Assembly (NCBI GenBank): GCA_021161135.1
Contig: JAGHBD010000125.1
Coordinates: 1 to 15,500, forward strand
Source of the DNA: Thermoplasmata archaeon
Lineage (GTDB): Archaea > Thermoplasmatota > E2 > UBA202 > JdFR-43
Reading direction: 5' to 3'
DNA: 15,500 nucleotides
Below are positions 1 to 15,285 of this stretch, in pieces (the stretch's first letter is position 1; each line of letters opens with the position of its first letter). The notes under the pieces were generated by a model. The model did no database searches. It saw only the letters and a program-made list of their open reading frames with translations, and had not been told where the DNA came from. Both the position numbers and the translations under genes were made by a program.

Positions 1-22
1 AAACAATAAATGGAAGGATAAG

Positions 23-295
23 ATGAAGTACTGGGTAAAGAAGGAATTAAAACCACCCCACGGAAAAGTCTATATTATTAAGGATCGCTGTAAAGGCTGT
101 GGTTTTTGCATAGAATTTTGCCCTCAAGGTGTTTTGCAGGAATCAGAGGAATTCAATTCTAAAGGTTATCATCCGCCAAAACTTGTGGAAAGCGATGAGA
201 AAAAATGCATTGGATGCGGTTTCTGCTCATTGATATGTCCAGAATTTGCAATTTACATTGAAAAGGAGGAGGAAAATGAAGAAGGAACAGATTAA
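23..295 (+). CDS. korD: 2-oxoglutarate:ferredoxin oxidoreductase, delta (ferredoxin-like) subunit
   Basis: A 90-residue dicluster ferredoxin subunit that carries electrons between the catalytic subunits of a 2-oxoacid:ferredoxin oxidoreductase and free ferredoxin in the cytoplasm. Two complete CxxCxxCxxxCP motifs are visible (C23/C26/C29/C33 and C62/C65/C68/C72), enough for two [4Fe-4S] clusters. The acidic tail (EEENEEGTD) is ordinary. The ATG at 23 follows a purine-rich GGAAGGATAAG. The frame stays open to the window edge, so a longer N-terminus cannot be excluded. Another frame ends at TGA 24-26, so an upstream gene could end in an ATGA overlap; this is only a possibility. The immediate korA-korB-korC neighbours fix the role, because as a lone gene it would only be 'ferredoxin'. 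The D-A-B-C order is the one known for archaeal Kor operons. Confidence 0.88.
   Translation: MKYWVKKELKPPHGKVYIIKDRCKGCGFCIEFCPQGVLQESEEFNSKGYHPPKLVESDEKKCIGCGFCSLICPEFAIYIEKEEENEEGTD
265..272 (+). promoter_or_regulatory. ribosome binding site of korA
   Basis: GGAGGAGG, three bases before the ATG at 276, lies inside the end of korD. It decides the korA start against the upstream in-frame ATG at 246, which has no such site. Confidence 0.75.
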
Positions 296-1418
296 ATTTT
301 ACAGCGGCAACATAGCGGCTGCAGAGGGAGCGATAGCAGCTGGCTGCAGATTTTTTGCTGGCTATCCCATCACGCCTTCATCGGAAATAGCTGAGCACAT
401 GGCACGCCGCCTTCCACAGGTTGGCGGTGTTTTCATTCAAATGGAAGATGAGCTGGCTTCGATGGCTGCAATACTCGGCGCCTCATGGGGAGGAGCAAAG
501 GCAATGACGGCTACAAGCGGCCCAGGCTTCTCATTGATGCAGGAGAATATCGGGCTTGGGGCAATGACGGAGACGCCTTGCGTAGTTATAAATGTGCAGC
601 GCGCTGGTCCCAGCACGGGAATGCCCACACTCGTTGGACAAGCAGATGTGATGCAGGCAAGATGGGGAAGCCATGGGGATTATGAGATAATAGCTTTATC
701 GCCATCATCCCCTCAGGAATGTTTTGATTTAACCATAAAGGCATTTAATCTTGCTGAAGAGTATAGGGTGCCAGTCGTTGTTTTGATGGATGAAAGCGTC
801 GCCCATATGTTTGAAAAGGTTGTTATTCCTCCAGAAAATAAAATAAAGATTGTGAATAGAAAAAAGCCAGATGTCCCACCTGAAAAATATCTGCCTTTTA
901 AGCCAGAAGGATATGTTCCTCCAATGGCATGTGCAGGCGAGGGCTATAATGTTCATGTAACAGGATTGACTCATGATGAAAAAGGATATCCTCAAGCTAC
1001 TGATCCTGAAGTGCAGGAAAGGCTTGTAAGGCGATTATGCGACAAGATAAGAAAAAATGAAAGGAAAATGAGAGACATTGATGAATATGAAATGGATGAT
1101 GCAGATGTTGCCCTCGTTTCCTTCGGCATTTCTGGAAGGAGCAGCAAGGCGGCGGTGAAGGAAGCAAGGAGGCGAGGCTATAAAGTAGGGCTTATAAGGT
1201 TGCGAACAATATGGCCATTCCCAGATGAATATTTTGAAAAAATTGCAGGAGACATCAAAAAATTCATTGTTGTCGAGATAAATTATGGGCAAATAAAATT
1301 GGAAGTGGAGAGAAATGTTGGCAAGGAAAAAGTTATTCTGCTGCCAAAATTTGGAGGAGAGATACACAAGCCACATGAGATATATGAAAAAATAAAGGAG
1401 GTGTACAATGGAGATTGA
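276..1418 (+). CDS. korA: 2-oxoglutarate:ferredoxin oxidoreductase, alpha subunit
   Basis: A 380-residue alpha subunit of the thiamine-diphosphate enzyme that interconverts 2-oxoglutarate and succinyl-CoA + CO2 with ferredoxin. The N-terminal pyrimidine-binding domain carries SGNIAAAEGA (10-19) and the signature YPITPSSE (30-37), then MEDELASM and ATSGPG, all typical of KorA/PorA/VorA. A C-terminal transketolase-like domain (ALVSFGISGRS, RLRTIWPFP) follows. The frame is open from an ATG at 246, but the start at 276 is preferred. A strong GGAGGAGG at 265-272 precedes it, and MKKEQIKFYSGNIA is the family's normal N-terminus. It overlaps korD by 20 bases and korB by 11, so translation is probably coupled. 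Substrate assignment (2-oxoglutarate rather than pyruvate or branched 2-oxoacids) rests on gene order and on the beta subunit. Confidence 0.93.
   Translation: MKKEQIKFYSGNIAAAEGAIAAGCRFFAGYPITPSSEIAEHMARRLPQVGGVFIQMEDELASMAAILGASWGGAKAMTATSGPGFSLMQENIGLGAMTETPCVVINVQRAGPSTGMPTLVGQADVMQARWGSHGDYEIIALSPSSPQECFDLTIKAFNLAEEYRVPVVVLMDESVAHMFEKVVIPPENKIKIVNRKKPDVPPEKYLPFKPEGYVPPMACAGEGYNVHVTGLTHDEKGYPQATDPEVQERLVRRLCDKIRKNERKMRDIDEYEMDDADVALVSFGISGRSSKAAVKEARRRGYKVGLIRLRTIWPFPDEYFEKIAGDIKKFIVVEINYGQIKLEVERNVGKEKVILLPKFGGEIHKPHEIYEKIKEVYNGD
1397..1403 (+). promoter_or_regulatory. ribosome binding site of korB
   Basis: GGAGGTG, four bases before the ATG at 1408, is the best match in the window to the anti-Shine-Dalgarno sequence. 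It sits inside the last codons of korA. Confidence 0.75.
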
Positions 1419-2238
1419 GGCAAAAAGTCATCCATTTGATAAATATCTGAGGGCTGATCGCATACCTCACATATGGTGTCCAGGTTGCGGATTGGGGACG
1501 GCTTTAAACTGCTTTTTACAGGCGCTGGAAGAAACAGAGATAGATTTGAAAAATCTTGCAGTTGTATCTGGCATAGGATGTGCAGGAAGAGTTGCTGGAT
1601 ACATAAATGTTGATTCATATCATACCACTCATGGAAGAGCCATTCCTTTCGCCACTGGCTTAAAACTTGCAAATCCAAAGTTGAAAGTGGTTGTATTTAG
1701 CGGGGATGGCGATTTATTTGCGATAGGAGGAAATCACTTCATACATGCAGCTCGCCGAAACATCGACATGACAGTTATATGTGTAAATAACTACAACTAT
1801 GGAATGACAGGCGGGCAACTTGGCCCCACAACACCGCTGGAAGCAAGAACGACGACTGCTCCATACGGCAATATAGAGCATCCATTCAATTTATGTCATG
1901 TTGCCGCCGCCTCTGGCGCAGTGTATGTAGCGAGATGGACAACACTACATGTCCGCCGCTTGAAAGAGAGTATGAAGGAGGCATTGAATAAAAAGGGATT
2001 TTCATTTGTGGAAGTTATAGCTCCGTGCCCCACTGCCTTCGGGCGCCGCAATAGAGAGCCAAGCGGACTGGATACGCTGCGCTATTATAAAGAACATTCT
2101 GTTATAAAGCATGGAATAGATCCCTCTGAGGCAGATATTGAAATAGGAGGAGATATTATAGTTGGCAAATTCGTTGATATTGAAAAGCATACGTTTAATG
2201 AGGCGGTTGAGGAGCTTATAAAGAAGGCGAGAAAATGA
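1408..2238 (+). CDS. korB: 2-oxoglutarate:ferredoxin oxidoreductase, beta (TPP-binding) subunit
   Basis: A 276-residue beta subunit that binds thiamine diphosphate and a [4Fe-4S] cluster. WCPGCG (23-28) supplies two cluster cysteines. GDGD (99-102) begins the TPP/Mg motif and continues to VNNYNYGMTGGQ (126-137). The PCPTAFGRRN segment near residue 206 resembles the PCPT..GRRN stretch of KorB-type rather than PorB-type subunits, which supports 2-oxoglutarate as substrate. There is no fused ferredoxin domain; korD supplies those clusters. Length is normal for the family. It overlaps korA by 11 bases and korC by 4 (ATGA). In an autotroph it would run in the carboxylating direction using low-potential ferredoxin, which fits the hydrogenase/Hdr genes downstream; direction is inferred. 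Confidence 0.93.
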   Translation: MEIEAKSHPFDKYLRADRIPHIWCPGCGLGTALNCFLQALEETEIDLKNLAVVSGIGCAGRVAGYINVDSYHTTHGRAIPFATGLKLANPKLKVVVFSGDGDLFAIGGNHFIHAARRNIDMTVICVNNYNYGMTGGQLGPTTPLEARTTTAPYGNIEHPFNLCHVAAASGAVYVARWTTLHVRRLKESMKEALNKKGFSFVEVIAPCPTAFGRRNREPSGLDTLRYYKEHSVIKHGIDPSEADIEIGGDIIVGKFVDIEKHTFNEAVEELIKKARK

Positions 2239-2774
2239 GGGTGGAGATAAAGTTTGGCGGATTCGGAGGGCAGGGAATAATTTTAATGGGCAATATAACG
2301 GCGAGGGCAGCCGCCATATATGATGGTAAAAACGCTGTCTTCACGCCTTCTTATGGGCCAGAGGCAAGAGGAGGGGCGGCAAGCTCCAATGTTGTCATAA
2401 GTGAGGAGGAAATTGATTATCCATACGTAACGCAACCAGATGTGCTTGTTGTAATGAGTCAGGGTGCTTACGAAAAGTTTGCTCCATTGCTCAAAGATGA
2501 TGGCTTACTCATTATTGATGAAGATTTGGTGAAGCTGCATAACGGCGAGGGTAAAGTTGCGAAAATTCCGGCGACGAGGATAGCTGAAGGACTTGGCAAA
2601 AGAATAGTTGCAAATATTGTGATGCTTGGCTTCTTTACAGGCGTAACAAAGCTTGTTTCATATGAGGCAATTAAAAAGGCTGTTTTGGAAAGTGTGCCAG
2701 CTAAATTTAGGGAATTAAACGAGGATGCTTTAGAAAGAGGGTATAAGCAGGGGATAAAATGGCAAGGAGAATAG
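2235..2774 (+). CDS. korC: 2-oxoglutarate:ferredoxin oxidoreductase, gamma subunit
   Basis: A 179-residue gamma subunit (POR_N/gamma domain), the fourth part of the split archaeal Kor enzyme; it closes the CoA-binding side of the active site. The signature GGFGGQGI occurs at residues 7-14 and YGPEARGG follows near 42-49; both are diagnostic for the gamma domain of 2-oxoacid:acceptor oxidoreductases. Start and stop overlap korB in ATGA, and the 3' end overlaps hdrA by 16 bases. The direct overlap with hdrA is notable because it places the ferredoxin consumer and the ferredoxin-reducing bifurcating flavoprotein in one transcript. Confidence 0.92.
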   Translation: MRVEIKFGGFGGQGIILMGNITARAAAIYDGKNAVFTPSYGPEARGGAASSNVVISEEEIDYPYVTQPDVLVVMSQGAYEKFAPLLKDDGLLIIDEDLVKLHNGEGKVAKIPATRIAEGLGKRIVANIVMLGFFTGVTKLVSYEAIKKAVLESVPAKFRELNEDALERGYKQGIKWQGE

Positions 2775-4696
2775 GTGTTTTCGTTTGCCATTGCGGCGTT
2801 AATATTGCGGGAGTTGTTGATGTTGAAAAGGTTGCTGAGGAGCTGCGAAAATACCCGGGTGTTGCCTTTGCGACGACATATCAGTATATGTGCTCAGACC
2901 CCGGCCAGAATCTCATACGGCAGAAAATAGAAGAAGAAAATCTTGATGCCGTCGTGATAGCCGCATGCTCACCTTCAATGCATGAAGAAACATTCCGCAA
3001 TGTATGCAAGGACTATTTCAATCCTCAGAGATGCGAGATGGCAAATATAAGGGAGCAGTGCTCATGGGTTCATGAAAAGGAGGAGGCGACAGAGAAGGCG
3101 ATAAAAATAGTGAAGGCAACGGTTGAGAAACTCAAGGGCAATGAGGATCTAACGCCCATCTATGTGCCTGTAGAAAAGAAATGCCTTGTTATAGGCGGTG
3201 GCATCGCCGGCATTCAGGCAGCACTAGATATTGCGGATGCTGGCTATGAGGTTATTCTGGTTGAAAAAGAGCCGAGCATAGGAGGAAGAATGGCTCAACT
3301 TAGCGAGACATTTCCAACACTCGACTGCAGCCAGTGTATTTTAACGCCAAAAATGGTTGCCGTTTCCAGGCACCCGAAAATAAAGTTAATGGCTTACAGC
3401 GAGGTTATCGATATCTCCGGCTATGTGGGCAATTTTGATGTAAAAATACTCAAAAAGCCTCGCTATGTCGATGAGGATGCATGTACTGTTTGTGGTGATT
3501 GCGAAAAAGTATGCCCTGTTATAGTTCCAAATGAGTTTGACATGGAAAAGAAGCCGAGAAAAGCTATCTTCATTCCATTCCCGCAGGCGGTTCCATCAAC
3601 ATATACAATAGATAGGGAGGCATGTCTTGGCTTGGCTCCGCTAACTTGCGCTGAATGCAGGGAGGCATGCGAGGCAAATGCAATAAATTATGATATGCAG
3701 CCAAAAATTGTGGAAGAAAAGGTTGGCGCCATTATAGTTGCAACTGGCTATGACTTATATGATAAAAGCAATCTTGTTGAATATGGATATGGAGAGGATG
3801 ACGACATAATAACAAGCTTGGAGTTCGAAAGAATGCTTTCCGCCAGCGGGCCAACAGGCGGCAACATAATAAAGCCTTCCACTGGCGAAACACCCAAAAA
3901 GGTTGTATTTGTTCAGTGTGCAGGCTCGAGGGATAAACAGCACATGCCATACTGCAGCAGCATATGCTGCATGTATACCGCAAAGCATGCCCTGCTTTAC
4001 AAGCATCATGTTCCAGATGGAGAGGCATACGTTTTTTACATTGATATAAGGGCGACAGGAAAAGATTATGAGGAATTCATCAACAATGTTATGGAGGAGG
4101 AAAGGATAAACTATATTCGTGGAAAAGTTGCGAAGATATTCAGGGAGGGAGATAAAATTGTTGTTTGGGGCGTCGATACTCTAACTGGCAAAAAGGTGGA
4201 GATAAAAGCTGATTTGGTTGTGCTTGCCATGGCAATAGTTGGAAGGAAGGAAACGAAAGAAATAGCACAGCTTCTTAAAGTTGCAACAGGCGTTGGAGGA
4301 TTTTTAAAGGAATCTCATCCAAAGTTAAAACCAGTTGAAGCCCTCTCGAGAGGCATTTATTTTGCTGGATGCGCTCAGGCTCCGAAAGATATTCCTGCCA
4401 CCGTCGCCCAGGCAAGTGCCGCCGCTTCCAAAGTTCTTGCTTTATTTGCTAAAGACAAGCTTGAGAAAGATCCGATGGTGGCAGTTGTGGATGAAGAGCA
4501 TTGTTCAGGTTGTGGAGTGTGCATAAGCGTGTGTCCATATGGAGCAATGCAGCGCCAGCCAAACGGAAAAGCAAAATGTATAGAAGCTTTGTGTGAGGGA
4601 TGCGGAACATGCGCTGCCGCATGTCCGAGCAATAACATAGAAATGCGCAATTATAGGGATGAGCAGATTGAGAAGATGATAGAGGTGATAATATGA
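2759..4696 (+). CDS. hdrA: HdrA-like electron-bifurcating FAD/iron-sulfur protein
   Basis: A 645-residue HdrA, the flavoprotein core of the soluble HdrABC-MvhADG complex, which in methanogens splits electron pairs from H2 between ferredoxin and a disulfide. Order of parts: N-terminal cysteine-rich segment GVFVCHCGVN (6-15) with further cysteines at 45, 70, 83, 92 and 101; FAD Rossmann motif GGGIAG (146-151); CSQC (190-193); inserted ferredoxin-like part with C242/C245/C248/C252 and C289/C297/C300/C304; GPTGG and CAGSRD in the FAD domain; GIYFAGCAQAPKDIP (532-546); and a C-terminal dicluster ferredoxin (C582/C585/C588/C592 and C607/C612/C615/C618/C622). All HdrA hallmarks are present and length is normal, with no fusion to MvhD. 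HdrA also occurs in non-methanogens, so its disulfide partner cannot be assumed. It overlaps korC by 16 bases and mvhD by 4. Confidence 0.95.
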   Translation: MARRIGVFVCHCGVNIAGVVDVEKVAEELRKYPGVAFATTYQYMCSDPGQNLIRQKIEEENLDAVVIAACSPSMHEETFRNVCKDYFNPQRCEMANIREQCSWVHEKEEATEKAIKIVKATVEKLKGNEDLTPIYVPVEKKCLVIGGGIAGIQAALDIADAGYEVILVEKEPSIGGRMAQLSETFPTLDCSQCILTPKMVAVSRHPKIKLMAYSEVIDISGYVGNFDVKILKKPRYVDEDACTVCGDCEKVCPVIVPNEFDMEKKPRKAIFIPFPQAVPSTYTIDREACLGLAPLTCAECREACEANAINYDMQPKIVEEKVGAIIVATGYDLYDKSNLVEYGYGEDDDIITSLEFERMLSASGPTGGNIIKPSTGETPKKVVFVQCAGSRDKQHMPYCSSICCMYTAKHALLYKHHVPDGEAYVFYIDIRATGKDYEEFINNVMEEERINYIRGKVAKIFREGDKIVVWGVDTLTGKKVEIKADLVVLAMAIVGRKETKEIAQLLKVATGVGGFLKESHPKLKPVEALSRGIYFAGCAQAPKDIPATVAQASAAASKVLALFAKDKLEKDPMVAVVDEEHCSGCGVCISVCPYGAMQRQPNGKAKCIEALCEGCGTCAAACPSNNIEMRNYRDEQIEKMIEVII

Positions 4697-5103
4697 GTTT
4701 TGAGCCAGAGATCGTAGCTTTTCTATGCAACTGGTGTGCCTATGCAGGCGCAGATATGGCGGGCACATCCCGCCTTAAATATCCGGCGAATGTTGTTCCA
4801 ATAAAAGTCATGTGTTCTGGCAGAGTTGATCCAGAATTCATTCTGGAGGCATTTGAGAGAGGAGCAGATGGTGTTTTCATAGGTGGCTGTCATCCAGGAG
4901 ATTGTCATTATGTAAATGGTAACATAAGAACAAGAAGGCGAGTGGAAATGCTGAAAAAGTTGCTTGAGCAAATGGGAATAAATCCCCGCCGCCTTCGCCT
5001 TGAGTGGGTTTCCGCTACGGAAGGGGCGAAATTTGCGAGAGTTATGAAGGAATTTGTTGAGGAGATAAGGCAACTCGGCCCATCACCATTGAGGAGGAAG
5101 TAA
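4693..5103 (+). CDS. mvhD: MvhD-type [2Fe-2S] electron-transfer subunit
   Basis: A 136-residue FlpD/MvhD family protein that wires the hydrogenase small subunit to HdrA. Conserved cysteines: C12 and C15 (FLCNWC), C41 (MCSGR) and C66/C71 in GGCHPGDCHY. These are the usual ligands for the single [2Fe-2S] cluster of MvhD. The protein is full length and stands alone; in some organisms this domain is fused to the C-terminus of HdrA. It begins in ATGA overlap with hdrA and ends one base before mvhG, so stoichiometric expression with both partners is expected. Confidence 0.93.
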   Translation: MSFEPEIVAFLCNWCAYAGADMAGTSRLKYPANVVPIKVMCSGRVDPEFILEAFERGADGVFIGGCHPGDCHYVNGNIRTRRRVEMLKKLLEQMGINPRRLRLEWVSATEGAKFARVMKEFVEEIRQLGPSPLRRK

Positions 5104-5104
5104 G

Positions 5105-6043
5105 ATGAAGAAGAAAATAGCCATGTACTGGGGTGCTGGATGTGGTGGATGTGATGTTTCGTTGCTTGGCATTCATGAAAAGTTGCTGGAGTTGCTTGAT
5201 GACATAGAAATTGTTTTCTGGCCATGTGCCACAGATTTCAAATATGAGGATCTGGAAAAAATGCCAGATAAAAGCATAGACATTGCTTTTTATAATGGAG
5301 CAATAAGGACGAGCGAGAATGAAGAAATTGCGAAATTGCTGAGAAAAAAATCGAAGATTTTAGTTGCGTATGGTTCATGTGCAATTGAAGGATGCATTAT
5401 AGGACTGGCAAATCTGTATGATAAGGAGGAGATTTTCAGGGCTGTTTATCTGGAAAATGAGACAACGCCTAACAAAGAAAAAATTGTTCCCAAGGAAAAA
5501 GCAGGAGAGCTTGAGCTTCCAGAATTTCTCCCCCACCTTAAAGTGCTGAGTAACGTTGTCAAGGTTGATGCAGTCATTCCTGGCTGCCCACCACCGAAGC
5601 CAGTGCTTATCGAAGCTTTGGAAGCGCTGCTTTCGGGCAAAACACAGTTTGGTAAAAGCGTTGCCCTATGCGATGAATGTCCCCGCAGAGATACGAAGCC
5701 AGATAAGATAGAGATAGATCGCTTCTATAGATGGCATGAGAAGCAGGACGATGGTAAATGCTTCCTAGCCCAAGGCATAATATGTATGGGGCCTGCAACG
5801 CTTGCTGGATGCGGCGGGGAATGTATAGCTGCGAATATTCCATGCACAGGCTGCATGGGGCCGCCGCCGAAGGTTCGCAATCAGGGAGCAGCGATGCTTT
5901 CTGCCATCGCTTCCTTGCTGGGCGAGATGGATGAGGAAAGGGAGAAGGAAGTGATAGAGAGTATTCAGGATATGGTAGGGACATTTTATAAATATACGAC
6001 TGCAAAATTATTACCAAAAGGGAGGGTTAAGGATGAAGGTTAG
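5105..6043 (+). CDS. mvhG: F420-non-reducing [NiFe]-hydrogenase small subunit
   Basis: A 312-residue small (electron-transfer) subunit of a cytoplasmic group 3 [NiFe]-hydrogenase. The proximal cluster ligands are visible as C13/C16 (GAGCGGCD), C92 (GSCAIEGC) and C161 (PGCPPPKP). The C-terminal half has eight more cysteines (C189, C192, C219, C227, C236, C240, C247, C250), enough for the medial and distal [4Fe-4S] clusters. There is no twin-arginine signal or membrane anchor, so the enzyme is soluble. Its partners lie on either side: mvhD one base upstream and mvhA overlapping by 11 bases. I prefer Mvh (group 3c) over Frh (group 3a) because no F420-binding FrhB is present and MvhD/HdrA are adjacent. 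Confidence 0.93.
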   Translation: MKKKIAMYWGAGCGGCDVSLLGIHEKLLELLDDIEIVFWPCATDFKYEDLEKMPDKSIDIAFYNGAIRTSENEEIAKLLRKKSKILVAYGSCAIEGCIIGLANLYDKEEIFRAVYLENETTPNKEKIVPKEKAGELELPEFLPHLKVLSNVVKVDAVIPGCPPPKPVLIEALEALLSGKTQFGKSVALCDECPRRDTKPDKIEIDRFYRWHEKQDDGKCFLAQGIICMGPATLAGCGGECIAANIPCTGCMGPPPKVRNQGAAMLSAIASLLGEMDEEREKEVIESIQDMVGTFYKYTTAKLLPKGRVKDEG

Positions 6044-7463
6044 TATTGATCCCATAACTAGGCTTGAAGGGCATGGAAAAATTGAGATATTTTTGGATGA
6101 CAAAGGAAATGTGGAGAAGGCTTACATGCAGATTCCAGAATTGCGTGGTTTCGAAATGTTTTGCAGGGGGAGAAAAGCAGAGGATATGCCAATAATAACA
6201 GCACGCATTTGTGGTGTATGCCCCGAAGCACATCACATGGCGGCAGCAAAAGCGCTCGATGACGCATTCAATGTTGAGCCACCTGAGACAGCGAAGCTTT
6301 TACGAGAACTCCTTTACAATGCCTATATTTTCTATGACCACTGCCTTCACTTATATTATCTTGGAGGCATCGATGTTCTGCTTGGAGATGTGCCGAAGGA
6401 GGAAAGAAATGTTATTGGCCTAATCAAAAAATTTGGAATGGAGATTGGCAAGGAAGTTGTTAAGCATCGCCGCTATGCCATGGAAATAGTCAAAATGCTT
6501 GGAGGAAGGGAGATACATCCCGTCGCCGCTATTCCGGGAGGAGTGAGCAAAGGGATAGGAGAGGATGAGAGGAAGGAAATAGAGGAGAAGGCAAAGTCAT
6601 GCATAGAATTTGCAAAAACGAGTTTGGCTATATTTAAGGAGGTATTTGAGAGCAAGAGATGGAATGAATTACTCGGCTTAGATAGTTTGCAAACATATTA
6701 CATGGGGCTTGTTGATAAAAATAACCACGTAAATTATTATGATGGTGATATTCGCATTGTAACGCCGAGCGGAAAAGAATTTGCAAAAATAAAGACAGGA
6801 GATATTTTAAATCATATAGAGGAGCATGTTGAGGAATGGACATATGTAAAATTCCCATACCTTAAGAAGGTTGGATGGAAAGGCTTCGTGGATGGAGAGA
6901 AAAGCGGAATATATCGAGTGGGGCCGTTGGCAAGATTAAATGCAGCAGATGGAATGAACACAAAGGAAGCGATGAAGGAATTTGAGGAGTTTAAGAAAGA
7001 AGGCGTTGTTCATGAAACCTTTGCTTTTTATCACGCTCGCCTTATAGAAATGCTTAATGCAGCAGAAAGAATGTATGATTTAGTCCGCCATAATGCCATA
7101 ACTGGCACAGATATAAGGGCAATGCCCAACGAGCCAGATGAAGGCATTGGTGTTGTTGAGGCGGCAAGAGGAGTGCTAATCCATCATTATAAACTCAATT
7201 CGCATGGTATAGTTGAGGAGGCAAATCTCATAGTTGCGACAACAAACAACAATGCTGCCATAAATATGAGTGTGGCGAATGCTGCAAAAAAAGTTATAAA
7301 GAAAGGAAAAGTGGATGACATTATCCTCAATAAAGTTGAGTCAGCATTTCGATGTTATGATCCTTGCCTAGCATGCGCTTCCCATGCCCTCGGTGATACA
7401 CCGCTTGTTGTGAATATTTATAGAGGAAATAAACTCTATAAGAGGCTGAAGAAGAATGTATAG
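6033..7463 (+). CDS. mvhA: F420-non-reducing [NiFe]-hydrogenase large subunit
   Basis: A 476-residue catalytic subunit that splits H2 at a Ni-Fe centre. The L1 motif RICGVCPEAHH (58-68) gives C60 and C63; the L2 motif DPCLACASH (443-451) gives C445 and C448. All four Ni ligands are intact. After H451 there are 25 more residues, the usual position for a peptide removed by a hydrogenase maturation protease once nickel is inserted, and such a protease is the next gene. The N-terminus SIDPITRLEGHG is the conserved family start. ATG 6033 is preceded by GGGAGG inside mvhG. The 8-base overlap with the protease gene suggests coupled translation. Confidence 0.95.
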   Translation: MKVSIDPITRLEGHGKIEIFLDDKGNVEKAYMQIPELRGFEMFCRGRKAEDMPIITARICGVCPEAHHMAAAKALDDAFNVEPPETAKLLRELLYNAYIFYDHCLHLYYLGGIDVLLGDVPKEERNVIGLIKKFGMEIGKEVVKHRRYAMEIVKMLGGREIHPVAAIPGGVSKGIGEDERKEIEEKAKSCIEFAKTSLAIFKEVFESKRWNELLGLDSLQTYYMGLVDKNNHVNYYDGDIRIVTPSGKEFAKIKTGDILNHIEEHVEEWTYVKFPYLKKVGWKGFVDGEKSGIYRVGPLARLNAADGMNTKEAMKEFEEFKKEGVVHETFAFYHARLIEMLNAAERMYDLVRHNAITGTDIRAMPNEPDEGIGVVEAARGVLIHHYKLNSHGIVEEANLIVATTNNNAAINMSVANAAKKVIKKGKVDDIILNKVESAFRCYDPCLACASHALGDTPLVVNIYRGNKLYKRLKKNV

Positions 7464-7893
7464 CGTAATAGTTGGAGTTGGCAACCCCATACTGGGCGAT
7501 GATGCTGTCGGGCTGGAAGTAGCGAAAAGGCTGCACGGCAAAATAAATGCAGATGTCAAGTTTGCAGAAGCGGGAGGGCTTGAGCTTGCTGAAATGATCG
7601 CCGAATATGAATTTGCAATAATAATTGATGCAGTGAAGGGCAGGAAAGGAGTTGTTGAGATAGATGTTGAAGAATATGAAGAAAGTGTTGCAAATCATGA
7701 TATTGCTTTTCCATCTGCATACCGCATACTATCCAGATATATAAGGATGCCCAAGGTTCGTGTAGTTGGCATTGGAATAGATGGAATGGAGGTAAAGGAA
7801 GGGCTTTCGGAGGAAATTAAAAAACTTGTTCCTGTTGCAGTTGAAAAAGTTAAGGAAATAATGGAGGAGGAAAATGAACTGGTTGCTGTCTAA
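7456..7893 (+). CDS. [NiFe]-hydrogenase maturation endopeptidase (HycI/FrhD/HybD family)
   Basis: A 145-residue hydrogenase maturation protease. By family knowledge it removes the C-terminal peptide of the large subunit after nickel loading, here probably the 25 residues after H451 of MvhA. The signature GVGNPILGDDAVG (7-19) is clear. D16, D58 (IIIDAVKG) and H81 (ANHD) fall where the HybD family has its three nickel-sensing ligands (Glu/Asp, Asp, His). It sits directly after mvhA with an 8-base overlap and overlaps hdrC by 20 bases. Dedicated placement between mvhA and hdrC suggests specificity for this hydrogenase. No metallochaperone hyp genes are in the window. Confidence 0.9.
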   Translation: MYSVIVGVGNPILGDDAVGLEVAKRLHGKINADVKFAEAGGLELAEMIAEYEFAIIIDAVKGRKGVVEIDVEEYEESVANHDIAFPSAYRILSRYIRMPKVRVVGIGIDGMEVKEGLSEEIKKLVPVAVEKVKEIMEEENELVAV

Positions 7894-8236
7894 GGTTGAG
7901 GAGCTGAGCGGAGAAAATTTATATGCATGCTATCAGTGTGGAAAGTGCTCTGCTGGCTGCCCAATGGTGGAGGAAATGGATTTGCTGCCGAATCAGGTTA
8001 TACTTCTCGTTAAGCTAGGCGACGAAAGCGTTGTGGAGGCGAAGTCGCCATGGGTTTGCGCCCAATGCTATCAATGTGGCGTAAGATGTCCGAGAGAAGT
8101 GGATATAGCGAAAATAATGGAGGCTATACGGCTAATAAAATTGAGAAAGAATATTGACCATATAAAGCTGGAAAATGTTGAAAAAAATCTGCCTCAAATA
8201 GCAATAGTTAGTGCGACCCGCAAATATACAGGGTGA
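7874..8236 (+). CDS. hdrC: HdrC-like dicluster iron-sulfur protein
   Basis: A 120-residue HdrC, which carries electrons from HdrA to HdrB. Two CxxCxxCxxxCP motifs are intact: C19/C22/C25/C29 (CYQCGKCSAGCP) and C62/C65/C68/C72 (CAQCYQCGVRCP). It ends in LPQIAIVSATRKYTG, close to the usual HdrC C-terminus, so although short it looks complete. The start at 7874 follows GGAGGAGG within the maturation protease gene, which it overlaps by 20 bases. HdrB follows four bases downstream. No membrane segment, so this is the soluble HdrABC type rather than the membrane HdrDE type. Confidence 0.92.
   Translation: MNWLLSKVEELSGENLYACYQCGKCSAGCPMVEEMDLLPNQVILLVKLGDESVVEAKSPWVCAQCYQCGVRCPREVDIAKIMEAIRLIKLRKNIDHIKLENVEKNLPQIAIVSATRKYTG
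8232..8236 (+). promoter_or_regulatory. ribosome binding site of hdrB
   Basis: GGTGA four bases before ATG 8241, including the hdrC stop codon TGA. It supports the 8241 start over the in-frame ATG at 8211, which lies inside hdrC. Confidence 0.55.
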
Positions 8237-8240
8237 GAAA

Positions 8241-9047
8241 ATGGAGATGGGGTATTATCCGGGGTGTACGCTAAAAACGAATGCAAAGGTATTTGAAGAT
8301 AGTTTGTTAAAGGCATTTGAAAAAATAGGAATAAAGCTTAAAGAGCTGAACAAATGGTATTGTTGCGGAACTGTATATAGTTTGGCGACAGACAATTTAA
8401 TGTATCGTCTGGCGGCAATAAGAAATTTAATCAGGGCAAAGGAAGATGGGCATGAAAAATTAGTTGCTCCATGCTCAATATGCTACAATACTCTGAAGCA
8501 GGCAAATTTGATGGCAAAGAGCGATGAGGAGGCAATGAGCAAGATAAATGCATTCATGGATGAAGAGCCAGATTATGATGGGAGTGTAAGCGTAATACAT
8601 CCTCTTGAAGTTATAGAGGCAAAATTGCAAGAAATAAAGGCGGCTGTTAAAAAACCACTCGGCAAAAAATACGCCGCCTACTATGGCTGCCTCCTTTTGA
8701 GGCCGAAAGAGATAGCTATAGATGAGCATGAAAACCCAAGCATAATGGAGCGACTCATTGAAGCTCTTGGCGGAAGCGTCGTCAATTTCCCGCTTAAGAA
8801 TGAATGCTGCGGTTCATATAATGTTGCGAGTAATAAGGAGGCGGTTATAGACGCTAATTATCGCATAATAACTAATGCCCGCCGTAATGGGGCTGATGCC
8901 ATAGTAACGAGTTGCCCCCTCTGCCATTTTAATTTGAAAGAAATGCAGAAGGAAGTTAAGAAAGTTCATCCAGAATTTGCTGGTCTGCCTGTTTATTATT
9001 TCAGCGAGTTGATGGTGGAAGCATTTGGAATTGAAATGGAGGGATAA
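8241..9047 (+). CDS. hdrB: HdrB-like protein with two CCG (cysteine-rich) domains
   Basis: A 268-residue HdrB. In methanogens this subunit reduces the CoM-CoB heterodisulfide at two noncubane [4Fe-4S] clusters. Both CCG motifs are complete: C9, C41-C42, C78, C81 and C150, C189-C190, C225, C228, matching the C-x(31-39)-CC-x(35-36)-CxxC pattern or within one residue of it. The frame is open from an ATG at 8211, but MEMGYYPGCTLK is the family's normal N-terminus and GGTGA at 8232-8236 precedes ATG 8241, so the later start is chosen. The real substrate here is unknown: heterodisulfide if the host makes CoM and CoB, otherwise another acceptor or the FrdB/FrdA pair encoded one base downstream. Confidence 0.93.
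   Translation: MEMGYYPGCTLKTNAKVFEDSLLKAFEKIGIKLKELNKWYCCGTVYSLATDNLMYRLAAIRNLIRAKEDGHEKLVAPCSICYNTLKQANLMAKSDEEAMSKINAFMDEEPDYDGSVSVIHPLEVIEAKLQEIKAAVKKPLGKKYAAYYGCLLLRPKEIAIDEHENPSIMERLIEALGGSVVNFPLKNECCGSYNVASNKEAVIDANYRIITNARRNGADAIVTSCPLCHFNLKEMQKEVKKVHPEFAGLPVYYFSELMVEAFGIEMEG
9038..9043 (+). promoter_or_regulatory. ribosome binding site of the fumarate-reductase-type iron-sulfur gene
   Basis: GGAGGG five bases before ATG 9049, inside the last hdrB codons. It selects 9049 over the in-frame ATG at 9025. Confidence 0.65.
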
Positions 9048-9048
9048 A

Positions 9049-9765
9049 ATGGCGAGAAAAAGTAAGAAGGGAGAAAAGCAGGAAATGGAGATGGTTAGGA
9101 TATATATCATGGGAAAAGAATACAAGGTTCCAGCTGGCCTGACAATAATGAAGGCAATGGAGTATGCTGGTTATCGTTATATACGGGGTGCTGGATGCAG
9201 AGCTGGTTTCTGCGGAGCATGTGCAACAGTGTATAGAAAAGAAGGAGATTATAAGCTCCATGCAGATTTGGCATGTCAAACAACCGTTGAAGATGGAATG
9301 TGGCTTGTTCAGCTTCCTTTCACGCCTGCAAATAAAGCAATTTATGATATGGACAAGATAGAGGCTGATGATAAGACGTTGGTTAATTTTTATCCTGAGA
9401 TAGCGAGATGTGTTTCATGCAATACATGTACGAAGGCATGTCCTCAGGAGCTTGATGTTATGGATTACATCCAAGCCTCGCTGCGAGGAGATATAGCGAA
9501 GGCAGCGGAGCTTTCATTTGACTGCATTCAGTGCGGCTTATGTGCAATGCGCTGCCCTGCAGAAATAGCTCACTATCATGTTGCCCAGCTTGCCCGCCGC
9601 CTCTATGGAAAATACATAGCACCAAAGGCAAGGCATCTGGAGGAAAGGGTGAAGGAGATTGAAGAAGGCAAATTTGATGAAGAGATGAAGAAGATGATGA
9701 AGATGAGTGTAACGCAGCTCCGCAAACTGTATAATGCTCGCGACATAGAGCCGGAGGAGGATTAA
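9049..9765 (+). CDS. frdB: fumarate reductase/succinate dehydrogenase-type iron-sulfur subunit, soluble, two-[4Fe-4S] form
   Basis: A 238-residue iron-sulfur subunit partnering the flavoprotein downstream. The N-terminal half is a plant-type [2Fe-2S] domain with C50, C55, C58 (CRAGFCGAC) and C76. The C-terminal half has two adjacent CxxCxxCxxxCP motifs, C121/C124/C127/C131 and C159/C162/C165/C169, as in HdrC or GlpC. Classical SdhB/FrdB would bind one [4Fe-4S] and one [3Fe-4S]. It also lacks the HdrB-like CCG domain fused to thiol:fumarate reductase TfrB of methanogens, but a free-standing HdrB is encoded one base upstream. No membrane-anchor subunit gene is nearby. The start at 9049 is fixed by GGAGGG and by the position just after hdrB. 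A charged helix (about 195-225) ends the protein. Family is sure; electron partner is inferred. Confidence 0.82.
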   Translation: MARKSKKGEKQEMEMVRIYIMGKEYKVPAGLTIMKAMEYAGYRYIRGAGCRAGFCGACATVYRKEGDYKLHADLACQTTVEDGMWLVQLPFTPANKAIYDMDKIEADDKTLVNFYPEIARCVSCNTCTKACPQELDVMDYIQASLRGDIAKAAELSFDCIQCGLCAMRCPAEIAHYHVAQLARRLYGKYIAPKARHLEERVKEIEEGKFDEEMKKMMKMSVTQLRKLYNARDIEPEED

Positions 9766-9766
9766 A

Positions 9767-11422
9767 ATGGCATATCCGAAGGAATTTGAAAAATCAATCA
9801 GGAAAGTTGAGGAAACAAGAGAGGAGCGCCTTAAAAAGCTCCCGGAAAGAATGAAGGAAAAGGAGAAGGATGAATTGCTCAAAAAATGGCATCCCGATTA
9901 TAAGCCAGAGGCAAAAAGAAAACTCAAAGTGGGTGTTAGCAAGGGGAGCATTGTTCCGAATGAAGTAGCAGATATTATAGAAGCATATCCTCTCATAAAG
10001 CCAGATGAAATTGATTTGAGCCAGGTTGATTATGAAGCGGATGTACTCATCATAGGCGGAGGAGGCGCAGGCACAGCAGCAGCCCTTTATGCCTATTATG
10101 AAGGTATAAAGCCAGAGAACATAATCATTGCAACGAAGCTTCGACATGGAGACAGCAATACAATAATGGCTCAAGGCGGCATACAGGCAGCAGATAAGCC
10201 AAATGACTCACCTCTAATTCATTACCTCGATGTTATTGGAGGAGGACATTTTGCCAACAAGCCGGATTTGGTAGCCCGCCTCGTAATGGATGCCCCCCTC
10301 ATAATAAAATGGCATGAAGAGCTTGGCGTGATGTATGATAAAAAGCCAGATGGCGAAATGATTACGATACATGGAGGAGGTACAAGCCGAAAGAGAATGC
10401 ACTCAGCCAAAGATTATACAGGCATGGAGATTATGAGAGTTATAAGAGATGAGGCAAGGAATGTGGGGATAAAAGTTCTTGAGTTCTCTCCAGCAATAGA
10501 ACTTCTAACTGATGGAAATGGAAGGGTTGCCGGAGCACTGCTTTACAATCTCGAGACAGAGCAGTATTATGTGGTGAGGGCTAAGGCAACTATAATGGCG
10601 ACAGGAGGCTTTGGTCGCCTGCACATTCAGGGCTTCCCAACAACAAATCATTATGGAGCCACAGCTGATGGACTTGTTATGGCATATCGCGTTGGCGCAA
10701 AGCTACGTGACATGGACTCTGTGCAGTATCATCCTACAGGCGTTGCGTATCCTGAGCAAATTGTTGGGCTTCTTGTCACAGAAAAAGTTCGCAGCTTAGG
10801 AGGACAGCCTGTTAATGTTGATGGAGAGCAATTTGTACATCCTTTGGAGCCGAGAGATGTTGAAGCTGCTGCTATAATAAGGGAATGCTATGGACGCAAT
10901 AAAGGCGTTGTTACACCAACTGGAATGCGAGGCGTGTGGCTTGATTCACCGATGATTGATATGATACATGGAGAAGGTACCATAGAGCGACGCCTTGGGG
11001 CAATGTTCAGGATGTTCAGCAGATTCGGCATTGATATGAGGCAGGAGCCCATCCTTGTGTTTCCAACGTTGCACTACCAAAATGGAGGAATAGAAATAGA
11101 TGCTGATGCAAGGGTGCTCGGCAAAAATGGCACCATAGAAGCCCTCTTTGCAGCTGGCGAGGTGGAAGGTGGTGTGCATGGCAAAAATCGCCTCATGGGC
11201 AATTCATTGCTTGATACGCAAGTTTTTGGCAGAATAGCTGGAATAAATGCTGCCAGATATGCAAAGAAGGCGAGAAAGCCCCGCAGCTTGAGCTTGGAAC
11301 ATGTTAATAAATATGTGCAGGAATTGAAGAAAGCAAGAATAAAGGAAGAGAGAAAGGCGCCTCTTCTCCTGCCAGATTACAGAGGCAAAGAAGTGTTATC
11401 GAGAGCAATAGATATTCTTTAG
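9767..11422 (+). CDS. frdA: fumarate reductase/succinate dehydrogenase-type flavoprotein (TfrA/FrdA-like)
   Basis: A 551-residue FAD protein expected to reduce fumarate to succinate in the cytoplasm. FAD Rossmann motif GGGGAGTAAA (97-106); AQGGIQAA (135-142); QYHPTG (320-325); EPRD with the likely proton-shuttle R363; HYQNGGI (436-442); HGKNRLMGNSLLD with R475. All expected substrate residues are visible. Where membrane-bound SdhA/FrdA have the FAD-linking histidine (SHT), this protein has S130-N131-T132, so FAD should be non-covalent, as in TfrA and L-aspartate oxidase. Residues 1-90 form a charged helical N-terminal extension before the FAD domain, and the C-terminal helical region is short. 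NadB is an alternative, but the adjacent iron-sulfur subunit argues against it. It ends the operon, overlapping the opposing gene by 3 bases. Confidence 0.87.
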   Translation: MAYPKEFEKSIRKVEETREERLKKLPERMKEKEKDELLKKWHPDYKPEAKRKLKVGVSKGSIVPNEVADIIEAYPLIKPDEIDLSQVDYEADVLIIGGGGAGTAAALYAYYEGIKPENIIIATKLRHGDSNTIMAQGGIQAADKPNDSPLIHYLDVIGGGHFANKPDLVARLVMDAPLIIKWHEELGVMYDKKPDGEMITIHGGGTSRKRMHSAKDYTGMEIMRVIRDEARNVGIKVLEFSPAIELLTDGNGRVAGALLYNLETEQYYVVRAKATIMATGGFGRLHIQGFPTTNHYGATADGLVMAYRVGAKLRDMDSVQYHPTGVAYPEQIVGLLVTEKVRSLGGQPVNVDGEQFVHPLEPRDVEAAAIIRECYGRNKGVVTPTGMRGVWLDSPMIDMIHGEGTIERRLGAMFRMFSRFGIDMRQEPILVFPTLHYQNGGIEIDADARVLGKNGTIEALFAAGEVEGGVHGKNRLMGNSLLDTQVFGRIAGINAARYAKKARKPRSLSLEHVNKYVQELKKARIKEERKAPLLLPDYRGKEVLSRAIDIL

Positions 11423-12336
11423 CTCCTCTGCCTCCTCACTATTTTTCCTTTCTTTATTTTTATTAGCTCTGCCTTTTCCAGTGCTTCAAGAATTTCATTC
11501 ATTGCCGCCCTGCTCACAAAAATTGTGCCATTCTCCTCCTTTATTTCCTCCATTTCATCCATGAATGCATCCAAATCTCTTTTTCCTTCTATCCTGTCAA
11601 GAAATCTCGCCATCAAATCAGCTGCAAATAGAAGATGGGCATATCTTCCTTTTTTATTATTAACGATTTCCTCAAGCCTTTTTGCCTCGAAGAGTAAATC
11701 TATCAGGCTTGCATACACATCCACACTTTTTCTAACAAAAACCCTGTATTCATATCTTACCTCCTCATCAGCCTCCTCATCCTTCGCCTCCACATACACT
11801 TTTACGAAAGGGTCGTCAGCAATTTGTCCCTTCATTACCTCTCCTTCATATTTTATGCCATTCCTTTCCAGCAGTGAATGAAAGAAATTCATGTAATGCA
11901 TTTCATCAATAAATTGCAGCATGTATTCCTCTGTATTTTTTCTTCCGAATTTTTCTGCCACTTCGTCAAAAACTTTTGCAGCATCCTGCACGCTTTTAAG
12001 CCCCTTTGCCTTTTCCCGAAGAAATTTTCTGATTTCTTCGAATTTCTTTCTTTCTGGCATAACTGCATTGAGAAATTTTTCCTCAAACTCCTTTGTTTTT
12101 ATTCCTTCATGAAAAAATTCTCTTGCCTTCGCAAAATGCTTTTCTACTTCTTCTATCTCCTTGAATTTATCACCGAATTTCTTTTTCAGCTCGCTCAACT
12201 TTCCCTCAATATAATAACTTCCTTCCGTGTTCAAATCTATGGCATGCCTCAATTCCACTTTTATTCCTGCCTTTCTTAGATCATCCGCTACTTGTTCTGC
12301 TTTCTCCTCATCAAATGTTCCTACATATACTCGCAT
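11419..12336 (-). CDS. conserved-looking charged protein of unknown function
   Basis: A 305-residue soluble protein I do not recognise. The frame is open from 12393, but start ATG 12336 is preferred: a TATA-like element lies about 20 bases upstream, and MRVYVGTFDEEKAEQ begins a plausible domain. Residues 1-50 look alpha/beta (VYVGTF, then an amphipathic helix, then GIKVELRHA) and recall small 'putative signal transducing' DUF2007-like domains; this is only a resemblance. Residues 50-150 are highly charged and helical, probably coiled coil. The middle (about 185-215) has beta-rich VKVYVEAKDEE and YEYRVFVRK. The last 35 residues (SRAAMNEILEALEKAELIKIKKGKIVRR) look like a small winged helix. No cysteine clusters, signal peptide or membrane segments. 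It is tail-to-tail with frdA, stop codons overlapping. Confidence 0.8.
   Translation of the reverse strand: MRVYVGTFDEEKAEQVADDLRKAGIKVELRHAIDLNTEGSYYIEGKLSELKKKFGDKFKEIEEVEKHFAKAREFFHEGIKTKEFEEKFLNAVMPERKKFEEIRKFLREKAKGLKSVQDAAKVFDEVAEKFGRKNTEEYMLQFIDEMHYMNFFHSLLERNGIKYEGEVMKGQIADDPFVKVYVEAKDEEADEEVRYEYRVFVRKSVDVYASLIDLLFEAKRLEEIVNNKKGRYAHLLFAADLMARFLDRIEGKRDLDAFMDEMEEIKEENGTIFVSRAAMNEILEALEKAELIKIKKGKIVRRQRS
11441..11465 (+). terminator. possible T-rich terminator of the large operon
   Basis: A run of T tracts (ATTTTTCC, CTTTATTTTTATT) about 20-45 bases after the frdA stop. Archaeal RNA polymerase stops at oligo-T without a hairpin. The same bases encode the Lys-rich C-terminus of the opposing gene, so the T content may be a coding by-product. 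Confidence 0.4.
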
Positions 12337-12351
12337 AACCCTGATTATGGC

Positions 12352-12362
12352 TATATTTTTAA
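12352..12362 (-). promoter_or_regulatory. TATA-like promoter of the 305-residue gene
   Basis: On the minus strand TTAAAAATATA, about 16-26 bases before ATG 12336. The predicted transcript would begin at or very near the ATG, a leaderless start; no Shine-Dalgarno sequence is seen. Confidence 0.5.
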
Positions 12363-12409
12363 TACTATCGCAGCAGTAACTTGTTATACACAATTTATTT
12401 GTGAATTAC

Positions 12410-13699
12410 TCATAATGAAAGAATTGTGGTTTCGTCGCCTGCTTCTTCTTTGCCACCTATTGCCACCATCCTCAATTTATGCCATCCTCTGGGCAGCGAT
12501 ATCTTGGCGGATATTCTATTTTTACCCTCCATGAAAGGTTCGTTATCTATATACAAGAAAAGTTTTTCGCACTGGATGCCATATCCATCAAAAGTTATAT
12601 CGCCAATATATATGCGATATTTTGTTGCATCAAATATCTTCCTGCCATTGAAAAATATACCCTTTTCTGGCTTTTTTATACATGCTGCTATCTGGCTTGC
12701 ATATGGCATTTCTTCCTTGCTTAACCCAGCCGCCCATGCCACGCTCCGTCGCAAAATCCACCAGTTATAGCTTATGTTGCTTTTATTTCCTATCCATTCA
12801 TAAATGAACCAGGTAAATCTTCCCATATAAGGGCGAACTGGAAATTCTCTCACATATCCATCGAAAAATGTCGCCTTTTCAGGATGAGGGCCAAATAAAA
12901 CGAGGCGCCCCTTTCCATAGTTGGATGCCACCACAGCATATTGCCCCATTATATCTGTTGTAACATTCATATATGGATACCATCCGCCATCCCTCCATTT
13001 CCAGTAATGTAAAGGAGCCACTTCCATAGGTTCTTCAGCATAAATGGCGAGGGGAATAACTTTGCCAAGCAACGGCTCATTGAAATTTGCATTATACATG
13101 CCTGGCCCTCCCCAGTATCTCATATTTATATAGCTGCCATAAAAGCCATCGAATATTGGCACCTCGCTTTCAGCAATGTATAATCGAATTGGTATTCCGC
13201 CATACTCCCAGTTCGACTTCCATAAATACTGCCACTCCTCATCCTGCTCGTTATTAACATAAATATTTGCAATCTTTAACGCCCCCACGCCCAGCAATTC
13301 ATTTATCCCAGCCTCCTTTCCAAACCCCATACTTGCAAGATTTGCTCCCCCGCATATGCCAACGTAGCCTCCTCCATCAGCGATGAATTCACGAACATTC
13401 TTTCTCCATTCAGGAAGGAGAGCATCGAAGTAATGCCGCCCGCTGCCTGGAATTATGAAAACATCAAAGTTGCTCAGCCTTCCATTCAGCACGTCCTGCC
13501 TATTCACTATTTCTGGTTTTATTCTGTATTTTATGCCACCTATTTCCCATGAATAATCGATGGCAATCCTTATTTCGTCGGCAAACCTTTCGATGTTGGA
13601 AAAATAAATTGCAGCTTTTATTTCCACTTCTCTTTCATCAAATGCATATATGGAAGGAAGGAAAATGAGGGCTGCAATGATTATGGCAATGATTCTCAT
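12410..13699 (-). CDS. predicted exported class I glutamine amidotransferase-fold protein (BPL_N-like)
   Basis: A 429-residue protein with a classical signal peptide (MRIIAIIIAALIFLPSIYA, cleavage probably after A19). Residues about 28-300 have the flavodoxin/class I amidotransferase layout: FDVFIIPGSGRHY (78-90), nucleophile elbow GICGGAN with C116, and GPHPE with H272/E274, giving a Cys-His-Glu triad as in the BPL_N family (biotin-protein-ligase N-terminal-like). Residues about 360-429 form a separate beta-rich domain (IYIGDITFDGYG, LFLYIDNEPF, RGWHKLRMVA) like an Ig-type fold. There is no C-terminal membrane anchor. The true substrate of exported BPL_N proteins is not known to me, and a biotin role should not be assumed. 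It lies three bases after the response-regulator gene, with no clear ribosome site, so coupled translation is likely. Confidence 0.78.
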   Translation of the reverse strand: MRIIAIIIAALIFLPSIYAFDEREVEIKAAIYFSNIERFADEIRIAIDYSWEIGGIKYRIKPEIVNRQDVLNGRLSNFDVFIIPGSGRHYFDALLPEWRKNVREFIADGGGYVGICGGANLASMGFGKEAGINELLGVGALKIANIYVNNEQDEEWQYLWKSNWEYGGIPIRLYIAESEVPIFDGFYGSYINMRYWGGPGMYNANFNEPLLGKVIPLAIYAEEPMEVAPLHYWKWRDGGWYPYMNVTTDIMGQYAVVASNYGKGRLVLFGPHPEKATFFDGYVREFPVRPYMGRFTWFIYEWIGNKSNISYNWWILRRSVAWAAGLSKEEMPYASQIAACIKKPEKGIFFNGRKIFDATKYRIYIGDITFDGYGIQCEKLFLYIDNEPFMEGKNRISAKISLPRGWHKLRMVAIGGKEEAGDETTILSL

Positions 13700-13702
13700 G
13701 AT

Positions 13703-14119: not shown

Positions 14120-14140
14120 TTTTAACTTAAATGCTGCAGA

Positions 14141-14150
14141 GAATTTAAAT
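14141..14150 (-). promoter_or_regulatory. TATA-like promoter of the response regulator unit
   Basis: Minus-strand ATTTAAATTC preceded by purine-rich GGAAA (BRE-like), centred about 27 bases before ATG 14119. This predicts a leaderless transcript and lies in the 80-base divergent spacer shared with panE. Confidence 0.55.
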
Positions 14151-14165
14151 TTTCCTAAATTCGGC

Positions 14166-14173
14166 TATATAAA
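14166..14173 (+). promoter_or_regulatory. TATA-box promoter of panE
   Basis: TATATAAA centred about 30 bases before ATG 14200, a near-ideal archaeal TATA box. It predicts a transcript start around 14195 and a leader of only a few bases; no Shine-Dalgarno motif is seen. Confidence 0.65.
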
Positions 14174-14199
14174 TTTAAAGTCGAACACGTTTCCGTCTC

Positions 14200-15198: not shown

Positions 15199-15216
15199 TT
15201 ATTATATCCACAACAA

Positions 15217-15230: not shown

Positions 15231-15285
15231 CTTCTTTTCTGCCTTTGCCTTTCACCGTAACTGCAACCGCATCCTTATCATTATT

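Follow-up and report, generated by a model that had tools for sequence, protein, structure and literature searches.

What does a heterodisulfide reductase (Hdr) do when its genes stand in line with those of a hydrogenase (Mvh), a 2-oxoglutarate:ferredoxin oxidoreductase (Kor) and a fumarate reductase (Frd)? The question is raised by a stretch of 15,500 nt from a metagenome-assembled genome (MAG) of a Thermoplasmata archaeon (assembly GCA_021161135.1, contig JAGHBD010000125.1, positions 1 to 15,500), here called the window. Thirteen open reading frames (ORFs), all on the plus strand, lie between positions 23 and 11422 in the order korDABC-hdrA-mvhDGA-protease-hdrC-hdrB-frdB-frdA. We suggest that this operon encodes one functional unit in which H2 reduces fumarate and ferredoxin together, a reading to which we assign a probability of roughly 55%; the electron relay, the bifurcation and the direction of flow are the parts of it that we infer.

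The genes were identified by NCBIfam and Pfam profile searches. Several proteins, among them HdrA, MvhA, MvhG, HdrB, HdrC, FrdA and FrdB, missed the NCBIfam equivalog cut-offs, hence the names below denote the best family and not an equivalog.

23..295, plus strand: korD, ferredoxin-like delta subunit of 2-oxoglutarate:ferredoxin oxidoreductase; OGOR_delta 57.9 bits (cut-off 125) and OorD 57.6 bits (cut-off 93), both below
276..1418, plus strand: korA, alpha subunit; PRK08659 589.8 bits, above the cut-off of 411
1408..2238, plus strand: korB, beta subunit; top match PRK09628 (2-oxoglutarate ferredoxin oxidoreductase beta) 264 bits, under the cut-off of 364
2235..2774, plus strand: korC, gamma subunit; TIGR02175 102.5 bits (over 81.1), PRK08537 219 bits (under 235)
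2759..4696, plus strand: hdrA, flavin adenine dinucleotide (FAD) subunit of 645 aa with a C-terminal ferredoxin-like domain; HdrA2 842.7 of 1100 bits and HdrA 630 of 1400, both below cut-off
4693..5103, plus strand: mvhD, link between hydrogenase and HdrA; FlpD (PF02662) 200.6 bits, above cut-off
5105..6043, plus strand: mvhG, hydrogenase small subunit; VhuG 206 bits, under the cut-off of 450
6033..7463, plus strand: mvhA, [NiFe] hydrogenase large subunit, group-3c-like; VhuA 372 bits, under the cut-off of 800
7456..7893, plus strand: hydrogenase maturation protease; TIGR00072 77.1 bits, over the cut-off of 47.45
7874..8236, plus strand: hdrC, relay protein of 120 aa with two [4Fe-4S] clusters; TIGR03290 63.9 bits, under the cut-off of 160
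8241..9047, plus strand: hdrB, two CCG domains (non-cubane cluster sites); ATG start at 8241, alternative GTG at 8211
9049..9765, plus strand: frdB, one [2Fe-2S] and two [4Fe-4S] motifs (Pfam); ATG start at 9049, alternative TTG at 9025
9767..11422, plus strand: frdA, flavoprotein of the fumarate reductase type, extended at the N terminus by about 88 residues; TfrA 333 bits, under the cut-off of 718

With the ATG codons at 8241 and 9049 as starts of hdrB and frdB, the 12 junctions range from a 20-base overlap to a 4-base gap, and a purine-rich stretch lies 5' of every start codon. The original prediction had described 13 same-strand genes in this order with gaps of at most 4 bases, and all ORFs were found as described; judged by the spacing alone, the 13 genes would share one transcript. 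A look for the same gene order elsewhere, which it had proposed, also gave a positive answer, as four relatives (L031, L032, L033 and L035) carry all 13 genes, and the operon is therefore not a product of chance. In L031, L032 and L033 kor is preceded by a gene on the opposite strand, so korD looks like the first gene of the operon. In L035 hdrB and frdB are separated by the gene of a TPR-repeat protein; this is the L035 copy of f84 (about 247 aa), which stands at that position in L037, L038 and L039 as well, and in L038 the contig ends within hdrB.

The nearest PDB chains to KorA are 1yd7 (2-keto acid:ferredoxin oxidoreductase) and 8ys5 (2-oxoglutarate synthase). HdrA residues 4-642 align with HdrA of PDB 5odc (E 7e-215), and MvhA, which carries the motifs CGVC and DPCLACASH close to its N and C terminus, respectively, matches 7t2r_D and 5odc_F (E about 1e-116). 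The architecture of HdrA, MvhD, MvhG and MvhA is thus that of the methanogen HdrABC-MvhADG complex (the 5odc family), though the cut-offs for HdrA, VhuA and VhuG were missed. The window differs from that complex in its diverged HdrB, in the absence of any coenzyme M (CoM) gene found, and in having a fumarate reductase in the operon.

HdrB is the sole HdrB match in its MAG, and its cluster cysteines are conserved. At 145.2 bits against a cut-off of 345.15 for TIGR03288, the HdrB of the coenzyme B (CoB)-CoM enzyme, it does not by score belong to the family that reduces CoM-S-S-CoB. To SdhE of methylmenaquinol:fumarate reductase, a subunit that acts as a wired electron relay, it scored 157.8 bits (cut-off 500). 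We compared these scores for ten hand-picked proteins, of which six adjoin frdB, two stand apart from it within the locus and two come from elsewhere. The window's HdrB and eight other HdrBs of Frd loci scored 135-178 bits to CoB-CoM HdrB, and the two HdrBs outside the Frd unit (L046 and L089) scored 263 and 308 bits.

Both cubane motifs of FrdB read CxxCxxCxxxCP, and all 12 cluster cysteines are invariant among 26 aligned sequences; quinone-linked enzymes carry a [3Fe-4S] cluster where FrdB has its second [4Fe-4S] motif. The PDB matches of FrdB are mostly to ferredoxin domains. In thiol:fumarate reductase (Tfr) the thiol-oxidising, HdrB-like CCG domains form the C-terminal part of TfrB. No CCG domain was detected in FrdB by Pfam, and its score to TfrB was 44.5 bits (cut-off 385). 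In both systems a soluble fumarate reductase flavoprotein is paired with an iron-sulfur protein, but unlike the methanogen TfrAB the window has an FrdB without HdrB-like domain, and its HdrB is a separate gene beside hdrC. As FrdB lacks the thiol-oxidising domain and HdrB falls far below the CoM-S-S-CoB cut-off, we consider a direct protein relay likelier than a thiol shuttle.

The likeness of FrdA to succinate dehydrogenase and fumarate reductase (SDH/FRD) flavoproteins begins at about residue 89. H322, T338, E339, R363, H436 and R475 are invariant in 16 aligned sequences and line up with SDH/FRD chains; this His/Thr-Glu/Arg/His/Arg set we take to be the catalytic residues of fumarate reductases, and fumarate is the predicted substrate. 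Asn131 stands at the position of the His that binds FAD covalently, and the FAD of FrdA is likely non-covalent. A quinone-linked Frd or Sdh was rejected on account of this Asn, the two cubane motifs and the lack of a membrane anchor gene in the operon. L-aspartate oxidase was rejected as identity of FrdA with 333 bits to TfrA vs 255 to nadB, both below cut-off; these are scores and not evidence of substrate.

How far does the arrangement extend beyond the window? An alignment search of a genome collection with FrdB gave 520 encoding stretches, of which the best 80 were kept as loci. They include Thermoplasmatota, Bathyarchaeota, Thermoproteota, Culexarchaeota and Njordarchaeota, and further Bipolaricaulota, Chloroflexota, Bacillota and Fibrobacterota. 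By tblastn an hdr gene is found in 74 of the 80 loci. The hdrC-hdrB pair lies directly upstream of frdB in 47 of 76, frdA adjoins frdB in 73 of 74, and hdrA occurs in 49 of the 56 loci with at least 6 kb upstream. Among the 61 loci with at least 8 kb of flank, 39 have kor, suc, fum or malic enzyme genes near frdB (36 on the frdB strand), namely kor in 25 (22 on the same strand), malic enzyme in 18 (17), sucCD in 16 (14) and fumAB in 10 (8), and mvhA or mvhG is present in 23; the identities of these neighbours rest on one representative per gene family. The fullest case, L048 of the Bipolaricaulota, has sucCD, kor, hdrA, mvhDGA, hdrCB, frdBA, fumAB and malic enzyme in one same-strand run. In the host and 58 relatives, FrdB had a match at E<=0.001 in 41 of 59 genomes, many of them weak and ferredoxin-like. 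The bacterial locus L080 (1-20716) has hdrA-mvhDGA-protease-frdBA followed by sucCD and kor, with hdrBC not in the region; we set it aside as natural proof of a dispensable HdrBC because its genome encodes CCG proteins elsewhere.

The electron donor varies more than the output. Labelled by those genes that share the strand of frdB in the DNA fetched, the donor module is Mvh in 31 of the 80 loci, f18-type in 16 (L059 and L072 assigned by hand), HdrA with mvhD only in 13, Flx-like in four and none or other in eight, while eight stretches were too short. The Flx-like type is exemplified by L107, with a FAD/NAD-binding protein and two iron-sulfur proteins (Pfam), a module which we take to be Flx-like; in L089 these genes are a long way downstream. 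One of the Flx-like proteins has a distant homologue in f18 (23-27% identity in eight pairs). On a quick FrdA tree of 69 rows (the window and 68 of the 80 loci, FrdA below 400 aa being left out; 58 rows labelled; 35 of 66 inner branches starred), the donor label requires at least 14 changes, or 13 when L089 is dropped or relabelled or when f18 is counted as Flx. Mvh against all else requires 10 changes and the domain label five. It seems that the donor module has been swapped repeatedly while the FrdBA output stayed.

The route that we propose would begin with MvhAG, which would split H2 and pass electrons through MvhD to HdrA, where the flavin would bifurcate them. The high-potential electron would travel from HdrC through HdrB and FrdB to FrdA and fumarate, with HdrB serving as a wired relay and not as a disulfide reductase. 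The low-potential electron would reduce ferredoxin, and KorDABC could use this to carboxylate succinyl-CoA to 2-oxoglutarate; an Mbh-type hydrogenase elsewhere in the genome could also re-oxidise the ferredoxin. Pyruvate would then be converted reductively to glutamate by way of malic enzyme, fumarase, FrdBA, SucCD, Kor and glutamate dehydrogenase.

With ferredoxin at -500 mV, the reaction of 2 H2 with ferredoxin and fumarate has a computed energy of -69.7 kJ/mol under 1 bar H2, and of -24.0 when H2 falls to 1e-4 bar. A disulfide acceptor of -140 mV gives -36.3 and +9.4 kJ/mol at the same two pressures. The fumarate potential of +33 mV is that given in a passage of PMC5861303. As a tentative and rather doubtful extension, we speculate that the operon might support a soluble fumarate respiration free of quinones, where H2 and fumarate drive ferredoxin reduction through the HdrB-FrdB relay and the reduced ferredoxin serves CO2 fixation by Kor or ion pumping by Mbh, so that energy could be conserved at trace H2 out of reach for the disulfide-coupled bifurcation of methanogens. 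If true, HdrABC would be a general engine with a swappable acceptor, fumarate being one natural choice.

Does the host have the metabolism to go with such a unit? Its MAG is 1.35 Mb, 87% complete and Thermoplasmata-like, and was surveyed together with 17 relatives (18 genomes). No mcrA was found in the MAG at this completeness, and ComA, of CoM synthesis, was found in none of the 18 genomes (CoB synthesis was not searched); a methanogenic host, which the original prediction had wanted checked, was therefore rejected. CdhC was likewise found in none of the 18.

A citrate synthase domain was not found in the host MAG and is present in seven of the 18 genomes. It occurs in none of the nine genomes with strong FrdB vs seven of the nine others (G000-G011 and G017-G022; Fisher 0.002), or, if G010 with its FrdB in pieces is moved, in 1/10 vs 6/8 (Fisher 0.013). 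Some of the citrate synthase matches lie in frames of about 620 aa that resemble ATP-citrate lyase. As this anticorrelation follows phylogeny and some matches are of the latter kind, we use it as support only; with no citrate synthase in the nine strong-FrdB genomes, Kor is their visible route to 2-oxoglutarate.

SucD exceeds its family cut-off in 12 of the 18 genomes, the host MAG included, where SucC adjoins it (367.5 bits vs a cut-off of 370). The glutamate/leucine/phenylalanine/valine dehydrogenase family is present in 17 of the 18, again including the host, and one host protein is 74% identical to the malic enzyme of L095. On contig 120 of the MAG is a cluster for a group-4 hydrogenase, which includes an antiporter-like subunit and a large subunit bearing both CxxC motifs. 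From gene order and motifs we take it to be Mbh-type, although its best-scoring NCBIfam families, NuoD and FpoD, stay below cut-off.

Several observations weigh against our reading. HdrB retains both of its non-cubane sites, which a pure relay would perhaps not need, and it scores higher to SdhE than to CoB-CoM HdrB in four of the nine Frd-locus cases (window included) and not in the other five. The two HdrBs from outside the Frd unit have SdhE scores (134 and 149) no different from those within, so it is the low CoB-CoM score and not a high SdhE score which distinguishes the Frd-locus HdrBs. When the 80 loci were scanned for any ORF that matches two genes of the window, no HdrB-FrdB fusion, which would have been direct proof, turned up; in L091, where one long frdB ORF looked suspicious, hdrB and frdB lie in different frames. 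The loci themselves call for caution: they are the 80 most FrdB-similar of the 520 and many are related, 29 of 76 lack an hdrB directly upstream of frdB, and in L056, one of the 25 cases with kor, the kor genes are only 30-33% identical and on the opposite strand. Fumarase was not found in the host MAG, though 15 of the 18 genomes, and two of three MAGs of the same genus, have it.

The same proteins might also run in reverse, as in fermentation or syntrophy, with Kor oxidising 2-oxoglutarate derived from amino acids, FrdBA oxidising succinate and HdrABC-Mvh confurcating the electrons of succinate and of ferredoxin to H2. We regard this as unlikely, while taking it seriously, as the host MAG has the glutamate-type dehydrogenase, SucCD and Mbh-type hydrogenase for it and the malic enzyme and fumarase neighbours fit either direction. 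In a passage of PMC9723716 the authors propose succinate oxidation coupled to proton reduction for the Culexarchaeia. Our calculation gives +4.5 kJ/mol for the forward reaction at 1e-5 bar H2, ferredoxin at -500 mV and a succinate/fumarate ratio of 1000, so reversal is possible in syntrophic settings, but of the 40 fumarate conditions in the calculation, 33 make the forward reaction exergonic, and the nine strong-FrdB genomes, lacking citrate synthase, have no other visible 2-oxoglutarate route, though glutamate uptake or deamination may supply it.

Alternatively, FrdBA could be a thiol:fumarate reductase whose disulfide is reduced by a separate HdrABC-Mvh, the thiol diffusing between them. 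The retained CCG sites of HdrB would suit this, similar enzymes are annotated as Tfr in passages of PMC8542988, PMC9635834, PMC9723677 and PMC8163825, and the 2019 proposal discussed below retains a DsrC thiol as alternative (in the part of PMC6315080 concerned). We nevertheless find it distinctly improbable given the missing CCG domain of FrdB, the scores to TfrA and TfrB and the low CoB-CoM score of HdrB, together with the absence of ComA from the 18 genomes, though another thiol could take its place. Still more doubtful is that FrdBA merely shares the operon with Hdr-Mvh and is fed by free ferredoxin or another donor. Such co-regulation would fit L080, and also the six of 80 loci where tblastn of the fetched DNA found frdB and no hdr gene (a weak HdrB-like ORF occurs in two of the six, and mvhD in a third), but the tight hdrC-hdrB-frdB-frdA order recurs in two domains and many phyla. 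The original prediction of an H2-Frd-Kor coupling is thus strengthened by comparative evidence as regards the functional link between Mvh/Hdr, Frd and Kor, while contact of FrdBA with HdrABC, dependence on ferredoxin and the reductive direction are still matters that we infer.

Whether such a grouping had been described was left undecided by the original prediction; it has. A complex of HdrABC, FlxABCD, KorABCD and TfrAB, with HdrA bifurcating to Kor and Tfr, is proposed for tubeworm symbionts and Chromatiaceae in passages of Rubin-Blum et al. 2019 (PMC6315080). The window operon likewise unites hdrABC, a donor module, kor and fumarate reductase genes. In both, as far as the passages describe it, HdrA would bifurcate to Kor (or ferredoxin) and a fumarate reductase, and the genes are interspersed; compared by description, the 2019 complex is bacterial, takes electrons from NADH through Flx, unlike the window with H2 through Mvh, and its reductase is named TfrAB. 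Closer in content is a 2021 report (PMC8542988) which, in the part concerned, describes in Ca. Celaenobacter (Cloacimonadota) a cluster of thiol:fumarate reductase, 2-oxoglutarate:ferredoxin oxidoreductase, fumarase, succinyl-CoA synthetase and Mvh-Hdr genes, with the same H2 donor, and infers an H2-driven reductive tricarboxylic acid cycle. Unlike the window's host, that organism is a bacterium with ATP citrate lyase, and its authors name CoM-S-S-CoB as the Mvh-Hdr acceptor. The window operon is therefore not new in kind.

The Ehe cluster of Culexarchaeia has HdrA2B2C2 beside SdhA according to a passage of PMC9723716, and the related L046 (Culexmicrobium) carries hdrA-hdrC-hdrB-frdB-frdA, with frdB adjoining frdA and hdrCB; unlike the window operon, the Ehe cluster is linked to a membrane hydrogenase. 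The window's FrdB weakly matches the cdhA profile (37.7 bits), and the 'CdhA' placed beside SdhA and HdrA2B2C2 in that passage may be this FrdB. Other passages place thiol:fumarate reductase in synteny with an Hdr-like complex and Eha (PMC9635834) or pair it with Hdr-Mvh through CoM/CoB (PMC9723677). No such complex is proposed in the passages concerned of PMC12542636, PMC7325909, PMC11176372, PMC11287216, PMC12220078, PMC6046458, PMC8163825, PMC5317091 and PMC8671834, and no biochemical demonstration was found in the literature searched, which covers few subscription papers and preprints.

The recurrence of the unit among archaea and bacteria alike, with exchanged donors and an unchanged fumarate output, points to a widespread energy-coupling device and would give Mvh-Hdr a role in organisms without methane metabolism. 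It also suggests that a thiol may be unnecessary for the soluble fumarate reductases that some genome papers annotate as thiol:fumarate reductase, and it makes the electron acceptor of HdrB outside methanogens a directly testable question.

Downstream of the operon, the window holds a 323-aa reading frame convergent with frdA (11419-12393, minus strand), for which neither Pfam nor NCBIfam gave a match at E 0.001, and a 429-aa glutamine-amidotransferase-like ORF (12410-13699, minus strand) with Pfam BPL_N over cut-off, GATase_3 below and no NCBIfam match. These are followed by a response-regulator-like protein (13703-14119, minus strand) and a 2-dehydropantoate 2-reductase (14200-15099, plus strand; TIGR00745 over cut-off).

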